DNA of 64,000 nucleotides from contig CALVBI010000001.1 in the NCBI GenBank assembly GCA_944325735.1, positions 310,001 to 374,000 of the forward strand, given 5' to 3'. This document shows positions 32,758-46,466 of this stretch, one piece after another. The position numbers and the translations under genes were made by a program. The DNA is from Candidatus Gastranaerophilales bacterium. Lineage in GTDB: Bacteria; Cyanobacteriota; Vampirovibrionia; Gastranaerophilales; Gastranaerophilaceae. The notes beneath the pieces were generated by a model. The model worked only from the letters and a program-made list of their open reading frames with translations, was not told the DNA's origin and did not search any database. Numbering within the stretch: the stretch's first letter is position 1; each line of letters opens with the position of its first letter.

Positions 32758-33503
32758 AATCTTATAGGGTAGTCTTTTGGTATTTTCCAATCATTGCAGT
32801 AAATTAAAGAAGTGCAATATATACTGCTAATAATTCCACTTGCATTTACAGTTTCTCCTTTACAACCTTTTATATAATCTGTTCGATTATTTTTAATATC
32901 TTCACAATTATAATTAATTGAGCCATATGGAGTAATAGTAACTTGTGAATTATTTGGATGTTTTCTTATATAAAAAGCAAAGACTTCTTTACCAGAAATT
33001 AATCTTTTTGGGTTTTTATTAGTTGATAATATTACATTGAATTGACCATAAGGAGTAGTTGTACTTTTAAGAACAAATGATATTACACTGCCATCACTCA
33101 GTTCTACCCAATTTGTTAATTGAGGATTATTCCAAAACCAGTTTGGATTACCTGAATAGTCATCATTATAATTGTATATTATATATTTTAAATTTTTCTT
33201 TTGTTGTTGAACAGCACTTCTGCCAATAATATTAAAATATGGATAAAAATATTCTTGTAAGAAAGCTTCTGCAGAGTCTCTATCGTATGTTTGATAATTT
33301 TCCCAATTCCAATTTATTGCCTCTCCGTTTTCTGTTTGAGCTTTTTCAAGTGCTTGATAAAGTTGAGTATATGCTTTTTTTAGTGCTGTTTCTGTTACTT
33401 TTTTGCGATAACTTTGTATTAATGCAGGTAAAGTTAATGCAGTTATTACTCCTATAATTCCCAGAGTAATTAAAACTTCTGCAAGAGTGAAGGCTTTTTT
33501 CAA
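32754..33503 (-). CDS. Prepilin-like protein (type IV pilin/pseudopilin N-terminus)
   Basis: 249 residues. It starts with the class III leader MKKA|FTLAEVLITLGIIGVI: short basic leader, cleavage before F, glutamate at +5, hydrophobic helix. The body is strand-rich, ending in a Cys-containing region (NCEDIKNNRTDYIKGCK, then IYCTSLIYCNDWKIPKDYPIRF). The start codon is TTG, with GAGGATAAACAA before it. It is divergent from an XRE regulator across palindromic DNA. It likely forms part of a pseudopilus or surface fibre; no assembly genes are nearby. Confidence 0.85.
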   Translation of the reverse strand: MKKAFTLAEVLITLGIIGVITALTLPALIQSYRKKVTETALKKAYTQLYQALEKAQTENGEAINWNWENYQTYDRDSAEAFLQEYFYPYFNIIGRSAVQQQKKNLKYIIYNYNDDYSGNPNWFWNNPQLTNWVELSDGSVISFVLKSTTTPYGQFNVILSTNKNPKRLISGKEVFAFYIRKHPNNSQVTITPYGSINYNCEDIKNNRTDYIKGCKGETVNASGIISSIYCTSLIYCNDWKIPKDYPIRF

Positions 33504-38205: not shown

Positions 38206-38754
38206 ATGAGTAATAATATACTTTCAGGTGTTTATGCAGGTTTGACTAATACATATTCATATCTTGCATCACAGTATCCTGAAGGTTTAACATTGGATAA
38301 TTTAACTGAGGCAAGAACTAAGACTTCTAACTATGGAGTTTTAAACCAATCTTTTGCTTCATATTTACAAACAAATTTCGGATCTATAGATAAAGACGGT
38401 GACGGTATAATTACAGCAGAAGAAATGAATAACCTTTCAAATACAATTTCTACACAAGGTTTGACAAAAGCTGAATTAACACAATTATATGCATCAGGTT
38501 CAAGCGGTTTGTCTGAAAGTACAATGACAAAAATTCTTGAACATTTTGATGAAATGGATACAAATCATGATGGTAGAATTACTAGTGCTGAAATTTCAGC
38601 ATATGATGTAAATTGTGCAAGAATGGAAGTTGAAGATGATTTTAATAATCGTCGTGTAACTGATATGTCTGTTTTTTATGGTGATAGTAGTTCATCATCC
38701 GCTGATTCATACAGTCTGTTAAGTTATAAATATAAATCCAATAAAAATTCATAG
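38206..38754 (+). CDS. EF-hand calcium-binding protein
   Basis: 182 residues with two canonical 12-residue EF-hand loops: D62 to E73 (DKDGDGIITAEE) and D118 to E129 (DTNHDGRITSAE). Both have acidic residues at loop positions 1, 3 or 5 and 12. A Ser-rich tail ends the protein. No signal peptide, so a cytoplasmic calcium sensor or buffer is likely; a non-classical export route cannot be excluded. RBS GAGGGC before the ATG. Confidence 0.85.
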   Translation: MSNNILSGVYAGLTNTYSYLASQYPEGLTLDNLTEARTKTSNYGVLNQSFASYLQTNFGSIDKDGDGIITAEEMNNLSNTISTQGLTKAELTQLYASGSSGLSESTMTKILEHFDEMDTNHDGRITSAEISAYDVNCARMEVEDDFNNRRVTDMSVFYGDSSSSSADSYSLLSYKYKSNKNS

Positions 38755-38840: not shown

Positions 38841-38906
38841 ATTTAATTGAAAATCGCTAAAATATATGTTAAAATAATTAAGTACAAACATAAAAGGAGC
38901 TTTAGA

Positions 38907-39760
38907 ATGGAAAGAGATTTATTGTTTAGAAAAGTCGGGGGGGGGGCGATTTAACAGCTTTCCTGCTTGCTTTTTGCCCGATTGGTATAAAAAGAAAAAA
39001 GTGTTATGTTGAGGATATAAAACATCAAATAAATGCTTTTACTCTTGCAGAAGTTTTAATAACACTTGGTATTATTGGTGTAGTTGCAGCTATGACTATG
39101 CCATCATTAATTCAGAAGTACAAAGAAAAAGTTTGGTTAAATCAATTTAAAACTACGTATTCTATACTTTCTCAAGCATATTTAAGTGCTTATCAGGAAT
39201 ATGGGTTACCTGAAGAATGGGGATTATCTACAAATTCTCAAGATAAAGATAGTATTGCAAAAGTATCATCTTATCTTTTTAAATATTTAAAACTTGCAAA
39301 TGATTTTAAACAGAATGATAAAAATAGTTCTAATGGATTACCTGTCCATTATAAAGATTTAGATGGAACAAATCTAGGAACAAATTTTAATGGATGGAAT
39401 GGTCGTGATTATGTTGTTGTTTTAACAAATGGTGCAGTAATTGGGATAAACAGTATTGGTTATATTGCACAAGATGCAAATAGTCAAAATAAAAAATTTT
39501 TGGTTAGTATGTATATTGACACCAATGGTGTGAGAGGCCCTAATCAATTTGGAAAAGATTTCTTTTTTATTTATTTAAATTCGCATGAAAATTATCCTGT
39601 TATTACCGGTTATCCTTTATGGTGGATAAGTGAAAAAAATTGTTCTACTAAAACAACTTCTGGGTGGTATTCCGGGGGAGCTTGTGCAACATGGATTATA
39701 AAAAATTGGAATATGGATTATCTTCATCGAGAATTAACACATGATGAATGGATTAATTAA
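38907..39760 (+). CDS. Prepilin-like gene with poly-G tract, out of frame (probable phase-OFF)
   Basis: An ATG at 38907 with a perfect AAGGAG starts MERDLLFRKV, then a run of ten G (38937-38946) leads to TAA at 38952. The frame one base away is open from 38948 and encodes DLTAFLLAFCPIGIKRKKC, then NAFTLAEVLITLGIIGVV, a prepilin N-terminus, through a 222-residue body to 39760. Eleven (or eight) G would join the start to the pilin. The leader before the expected A-F cleavage would be unusually long (about 49 residues). C-terminal features (NGVRGPNQFGKD, Cys pair) resemble the 45846 protein. Confidence 0.75.
38937..38946 (+). repeat. Homopolymer of ten G
   Basis: By far the longest G run in this AT-rich window, located nine codons after a start codon with a strong RBS. 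A slippage-prone tract in this position is typical of contingency loci. Confidence 0.9.
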
Positions 39761-39786
39761 AAAAGGCTCTTGTAAGAGCCTTTTTT
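39761..39786. terminator. Bidirectional intrinsic terminator
   Basis: GGCTCT (39765-39770) pairs with AGAGCC (39775-39780), flanked by A and T runs on the two sides. It lies between the convergent prepilin-like gene and eno. Confidence 0.85.
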
Positions 39787-39793
39787 AATCCTT

Positions 39794-45845: not shown

Positions 45846-46466
45846 TTAGATGCGATGTGGGTAATCTTTTTTTATTTCCCAGTTATCATATTGGATTAAT
45901 GCTCCACAATATTTAGGTGTTGTAGTTGCGCATAAATCTAGTAGATTTGTGCGGTTAACTGGAGTTGTATTTAATCCTGCAAAAAATAGATATTTAGGAG
46001 TATTTCCCGTATTATTTATATTTAAGTATGTTGTAAATTGATCATATCCTTGTTTATTTGGCCCTTGGATTCCGTTAATATCTATAATAAAATCTACGTA
46101 TGTGCCAATATGCAAGCAAATAATTGTGCCGTTTTTTAATTTTATGTATGTTAGCCGCTCATTATATTCTGGGGTATAATCGGCACTGATTCCTATTTCT
46201 GTATATTCAAGGTATGGAGCTATGTATTTATTTACCCAATCTTTTATATCAGAACCGTACGGTGGAAAATCCCAATCTGTATATTCATTGTTTTCTGTGA
46301 TTGAAAGCATTATTGCTTGTGAAAGGATACTATATGATGCTTTTAATCTAGTAACAGTTAATTTTTTTCTATAATTTGCAATTAAGGAAGGGATAGTCAT
46401 TGATGCAATAATCCCAATGATTCCTAATGTAATAAGTATTTCTGCTAAAGTAAATCCTTTTTTCAA
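45846..46466 (-). CDS. Prepilin-like protein
   Basis: 206 residues with the leader MKKG|FTLAEILITLGIIGII, glutamate at +5 and hydrophobic helix. The body contains the DINGIQGPNKQGYDQF block shared with the 38907 protein (DTNGVRGPNQFGKDFF) and late cysteines. The start codon is TTG with AGGAGAG five bases upstream, as with the 32754 prepilin. It is divergent from an XRE gene. Probable pseudopilin or minor pilin exported by a type II/IV system encoded elsewhere. Confidence 0.87.
   Translation of the reverse strand: MKKGFTLAEILITLGIIGIIASMTIPSLIANYRKKLTVTRLKASYSILSQAIMLSITENNEYTDWDFPPYGSDIKDWVNKYIAPYLEYTEIGISADYTPEYNERLTYIKLKNGTIICLHIGTYVDFIIDINGIQGPNKQGYDQFTTYLNINNTGNTPKYLFFAGLNTTPVNRTNLLDLCATTTPKYCGALIQYDNWEIKKDYPHRI

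Follow-up and report, generated by a model that had tools for sequence, protein, structure and literature searches.

Prepilin-like genes held one base out of frame by a ten-base G/C tract in a Gastranaerophilales genome

The window analyzed here, a 64-kb stretch of the genome of a Candidatus Gastranaerophilales bacterium, carries at 38907-39760 a prepilin-like gene whose leader is interrupted by a run of ten G. The next longest G run in the window, which has a GC content of 30%, is five. The gene is laid out as follows.

38895-38909, plus strand: ribosome-binding site (RBS) AGGAG (38895-38899) and start codon ATG (38907-38909), from the sequence
38907-38936, plus strand: leader segment 1, MERDLLFRKV, ten codons, from the sequence
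38937-38946, plus strand: G10 tract with C on either side, leaving the frame short by one base, from the sequence
38947-38960, plus strand: 3' flank CGATTTAACAGCTT, containing the unshifted stop TAA (38952-38954) and GCT at +11, from the sequence
38947-39037, plus strand: leader segment 2 in the prepilin frame, ..DLTAFLLAFCPIGIKRKKCYVEDIKHQINA, without an in-frame start codon (start codons read by eye)
39038-39757, plus strand: mature prepilin-like protein, 240 aa, FTLAEVLITLGIIGVVAA..., with stop at 39758-39760 (Pfam N_methyl, genome scan and model)
39761-39787, plus strand: probable intrinsic terminator AAAAAGGCTCTTGTAAGAGCCTTTTTT (read by eye)

The RBS, the ATG at 38907, the ten G at 38937-38946 and the stop at 38952 are all as the first-pass annotation had placed them, and its description of a prepilin-like gene with a tract inside the leader, OFF as sequenced, holds. 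The one-base fit that it reported is exact: with eleven G (or eight) at 38937, the frame remains open across the tract, joins the start to the intact prepilin at FTLAEVLITLGIIGVVAA and ends at 39758-39760. Two lengths were misjudged. The leader, put at about 49 residues, is in the ON frame MERDLLFRKVGGGGDLTAFLLAFCPIGIKRKKCYVEDIKHQINA, 44 residues ahead of the Phe, and the mature prepilin has a length of 240 aa, the supposed 222-residue body being the part that an ORF from the internal ATG at 39092 would encode. Translation from 39092 was rejected because this position lies inside the prepilin helix. Any other start downstream of the tract was rejected for this gene because none precedes the motif: inspection by eye found no ATG, GTG or TTG in frame between tract and prepilin motif. 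The same is true of 44 of the 76 tract genes in this genome.

Directly upstream (38206-38754) lies a gene for an EF-hand protein of 182 aa, and the minus strand of the window has two more prepilin-like genes, at 33432-33500 and 46395-46463, with plain leaders that lack a G tract. The part of leader segment 2 at 38990-39037 (..CYNSDMKHH..) is reminiscent of a former promoter and start, TGTTATAAT..ATGAAACATCAT, now lying within the frame, and has equivalents at L012, L019, L027 and L036. The impression is of an older prepilin gene that acquired a new leader at its 5' end.

The N-terminus of the encoded protein carries a class III signal motif (G/A-FTxxE followed by a hydrophobic helix), with Ala, not Gly, at residue -1, and matches Pfam N_methyl (PF07963) above the cut-off (E=8.5e-5). 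An AlphaFold2 model obtained from 36 homologues (pLDDT 85.9) has a 53-residue N-terminal helix (residues 3-55) and a beta-rich, globular body with strands at 86-190. A PDB fold search with the body model returned no match at E <= 0.001, and the pilin FimA (3sok) appeared only at E=2.2. Assignment of the body as a putative prepilin is based on the N-terminal motif together with the model.

A reading of this gene as a single-locus curiosity was rejected, as the arrangement occurs about 77 times in the genome and also across related species. The genome (1.94 Mb, 8 contigs) contains 78 G/C runs of at least eight bases, 77 of them within leaders of prepilin-like genes, and all runs of at least nine sit in such leaders. 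Seventy-three of the 77 leader tracts are ten bases long, two are nine, one is eleven and one is twelve. The RBS and start arrangement seen at 38895-38909 is found in 74 of 76 tract genes, and ORFs of at least 207 aa are intact in all 76, with residues conserved at 30-40% identity. When the first 30 mature residues are excluded, 72 of 76 tract-gene bodies form one homologous cluster; three tract genes encode far longer proteins (592-741 aa) and fall into a separate body cluster. A variant motif, YTLAEVIVVMLIIAV, also with a G10 leader, occurs in L029, L044 and L050 of this genome, which are probably the three longer genes and would constitute a second family using the same device. A repeat-like peptide (..HSEGAYPKESSQLLK..GLLRQKSRND..), apparently translated from a dispersed repeat element, occurs in the leaders of L015, L018, L032, L033, L040, L044 and L051. 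The genome has 109 N_methyl matches in all, and the few examined among the genes without a tract lack the G run and have mostly plain leaders. N_methyl genes number just 17 and 23 in two congeners without any G10, so that the tract genes seem to have expanded on top of a core set.

We scored the frame offset of each tract gene from its best RBS-preceded start, as the number of bases that must be added at the tract to bring the gene into frame. Exactly one added base is needed in 69 of the 74 scorable genes of this genome, and the rule applies whether the coding strand carries G (55 genes) or C (21 genes). Among genes with ten-base tracts, the start-to-tract and tract-to-motif distances each take all three values modulo 3, and the pairs formed are almost only the three combinations that leave a gene one base short. 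The sampled relatives include Fusobacterium sp. CAG:439, BRZ_LG__bin75, BRZ_EH__bin71 and other Gastranaerophilales MAGs. Over all of them, counted as distinct proteins and including a few loci with uncertain start or assembly (for example at scaffold gaps in CAG:439), 243 of 286 genes are one base short; an insertion is needed in 243 genes and a deletion in 21.

The tract is exactly ten bases long in 230 of 276 unique genes and is near-fixed even between deeply diverged genes; of the 267 genes that could be scored in the assemblies, 19 are in frame. The first-pass annotation had named a fixed length as evidence against switching. Fixity is largely true between genes and species, although rare length variants exist: in one pair with 94% DNA identity, the gene is G10 and OFF in CAG:439 and G11 and ON in BRZ_EH__bin71. 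In isolate D-Fe6_120416.27, the tracts are nine bases long and every gene scored has an ON length of ten, so the conserved quantity is being one short rather than being ten. The congener G002, a close relative, has longer, variable tracts of 9-15 bases (L103-L109), many lying outside prepilins; their frames are mixed, and they make up a predicted phase-variable set of a more classical kind. The congeners G012 and G023 have no G10 tracts. Of five relatives searched with a fixed motif, only one gave a match, since the 3' flank differs from species to species. Scanning viral contigs for the leader pattern gave four matches, of which the one examined was a contig ending in a G run after apparent phage tail genes. 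On the minus strand at L323:2559 in BRZ_EH__bin71, a G10 leader precedes what may be a MotB/OmpA-like membrane protein (..TTMADLLLGLAIIFMTLF..), with the frame displaced by the other offset.

The strand that carries the G is constant in long contig blocks of this genome, regardless of gene direction. With the leading strand inferred from GC skew, all 38 plus-strand tracts have their G on the strand of positive skew. Among the 38 minus-strand tracts 32 do so, and the remaining six lie at weak-skew loci. Co-directional genes accordingly have G10 leaders (..VGGGG..) and head-on genes C10 leaders (..ALRVPPPP..). The same strand blocks are seen in G031, BRZ_EH__bin71, G001 and G022; G002 has no clear strand rule. 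The two leader classes are interspersed in the protein tree, whose well-supported branches force a minimum of six changes; leaders have therefore apparently been replaced repeatedly with the strand rule retained. Short and long first leader segments are each paired with several kinds of second segment, combinations that suggest reassortment around the tract. Read on the G strand, the flanks of both gene classes have C before the run, C-A/G after it and GCT at +10 to +12, the last being present in the flank of the window gene as well. In co-directional one-base-short genes of this genome, the unshifted frame meets a stop within 12 nt in 48 of 48 cases, where shuffling expects 10.6; for head-on genes the count is 7 of 21, against 5.4 expected.

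The explanation we prefer, with about even confidence, is that these genes form a default-OFF, phase-variable prepilin repertoire in which each member is one insertion from ON and replication slippage works the switch. A tract set at ten bases would keep each prepilin gene OFF, an occasional insertion from ten to eleven would restore the frame and let the cell make that prepilin, and the population would display a changing subset of a large pilin repertoire. This presumes that tract lengths switch within populations, that ON cells would bear a fibre and that a mostly silent repertoire may be of benefit. As the RBS, start and ORFs of at least 207 aa are intact in all family members examined, the genes must be translated sometimes. 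The deficit of exactly one base in nearly all genes speaks for such a switch, and so do the in-frame G11 alleles, one of which is the 94%-identical counterpart of an OFF gene. The strand rule follows replication, not transcription, and length ten also occurs in in-frame genes that are not prepilins, which indicates a DNA-level process; these two observations together with the variable tracts of G002 indicate a tract linked to replication. Variable tracts of the G002 type, found also in other genes, appear to resemble classical phase variation.

Two observations fit a switch less well. The near-fixed length (exactly ten in 230 of 276) is tighter than expected of a fast switch, and the excess of genes needing insertion over those needing deletion (243 versus 21) is not predicted by a symmetric one. 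Moreover, MutS and MutL are present in tract-rich genomes; slippage should therefore be damped, and loss of mismatch repair was rejected as a cause. Of the phase-variable reading in the first-pass annotation, the exact one-base OFF state is borne out; independent random switching is insufficient as an explanation, the length being near-fixed. Ordinary random phase variation accounts neither for this length nor for the insertion-only direction or the strand rule. We tentatively raise, as a doubtful but substantial proposal, that tens of prepilin genes bearing a fixed, one-short leading-strand G run may be expressed by a directed correction in a single direction (replication-coupled insertion or programmed recoding) and not by random phase variation.

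Programmed recoding, considered by itself, is in our judgment the less likely reading but a serious rival. The DNA would be uniformly G10 or C10, and a ribosomal -1 frameshift or the insertion of a base by RNA polymerase would yield low or regulated prepilin in all cells. A single offset direction, the same across species and codon phases, is in keeping with this, as are the conserved tract length and the retention of the same offset in isolate D-Fe6_120416.27, where tracts of nine have an ON length of ten. Any run of nine or ten contains a slippery heptamer X_XXX_XXX in any phase, the direction in homologues is constant, and C_CCC_CCC is one of the motifs listed as efficient for -1 slippage in E. 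coli (PMC4066793), although an all-G run is not in the list of most efficient motifs there (PMC4066793). Co-directional genes also keep a stop just past the tract (48 of 48, with 10.6 expected), and both the insertion bias and the tight lengths would be natural if out-of-frame G10 were the functional state. Recoding, however, leaves unexplained why G is on the leading strand and why length ten is found in in-frame genes of other families, and the mRNAs of the two gene classes have opposite bases (G10 or C10) with the same offset. More improbable still is that the tract is mainly a DNA site, serving pilin-gene recombination or marking replication polarity, with the frame offset secondary. Its strict replication polarity, the G-strand flank common to both gene directions, the several leader segment combinations around it and the six or more changes of gene bodies from one leader class (G or C) to the other would all suit such a site. 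Yet a site has no need of a one-base offset maintained in all three phases, and the tract is absent from some congeners and confined to prepilin leaders in this genome. A polar site of the KOPS or Chi kind, acting genome-wide, is not favored, given the lack of G10 in G012 and G023 and its prepilin-only occurrence here.

A sequencing or assembly artefact, by which true tracts are in frame and assemblies drop one G, seems to us very improbable. Homopolymer G is hard to sequence, and earlier annotated G-tract lengths have been wrong (PMC9187656). Within BRZ_EH__bin71, however, 48 of the 49 prepilin tracts that could be scored lack one base. Six tracts of equal length in other genes have long open frames on either side, and five of the six are in frame; one of these five, ..CASRYMPGGGQIGGPV.., lies in a family-2 glycosyltransferase with a Pfam match (E=6e-19) spanning the tract. 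Because a minus-one error would break these in-frame tracts too, a systematic assembly error does not seem to be at work; several independent assemblies agree. This control further suggests that a length of ten is fixed at the DNA level whatever the frame, and that the choice of frame is specific to prepilins. To the idea that the family consists of decayed pseudogenes we give almost no credence. As sequenced, the genes would make a short peptide of only about 10-40 aa, but all 76 keep ORFs of at least 207 aa with residues conserved at 30-40% identity, the RBS and ATG are retained, and the one-base offset is the same nearly everywhere. Intact ORFs and conserved frame already refute this reading for the family.

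Large dispersed surface-protein families whose expression is set by a simple repeat at the 5' end are known, as in Neisseria opa and Mycoplasma gallisepticum vlhA. These involve other repeats and other proteins, and their repeat numbers vary between copies, whereas the tracts described here are nearly all of one length. The phasomes of Campylobacter and Neisseria (PMC8355987, PMC5084427) likewise contain many G/C homopolymer tracts in surface genes, but the genes are many and different and their states mixed ON and OFF, in contrast to a single family nearly all OFF by the same base. We know of no strand rule in these phasomes. The nearest documented case appears to be that of Bifidobacterium sortase-dependent pili, which have poly-G slippage switches with measured G-tract heterogeneity (PMC9187656). 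There too, in a gut commensal, poly-G splits a pilus gene into two ORFs and product follows a change in tract bases; the pilus type is different, however, and there are one or two loci of variable length per genome rather than about 77 near-fixed prepilin loci obeying a strand rule (PMC9187656). Programmed frameshifting and transcriptional slippage, as in dnaX and IS elements, share the conserved out-of-frame join, the slippery run and the constant direction, but in bacteria the known examples involve individual genes or IS elements in which A/U runs predominate, as opposed to dozens of genes with G/C runs and a replication-strand rule (PMC3711429, PMC5009743). The arrangement was not found in the Gastranaerophilales and Melainabacteria literature on phase variation, pilin or frameshift, as covered by titles and abstracts of open-licence papers, which is weak evidence of absence.

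Gene callers likely break or mis-start all tract genes, and the family is thus probably under-annotated. The replication-strand rule offers a handle on how strand orientation controls homopolymer stability. If the tracts switch, as in the default-OFF repertoire that we prefer, they would constitute one of the largest single-family phase-variable repertoires known to us, in a little-cultured gut lineage, and would explain why many pilin genes of this lineage look broken. Should they not switch, recoding would be the route of expression for tens of genes in each genome, which would be new in scale.
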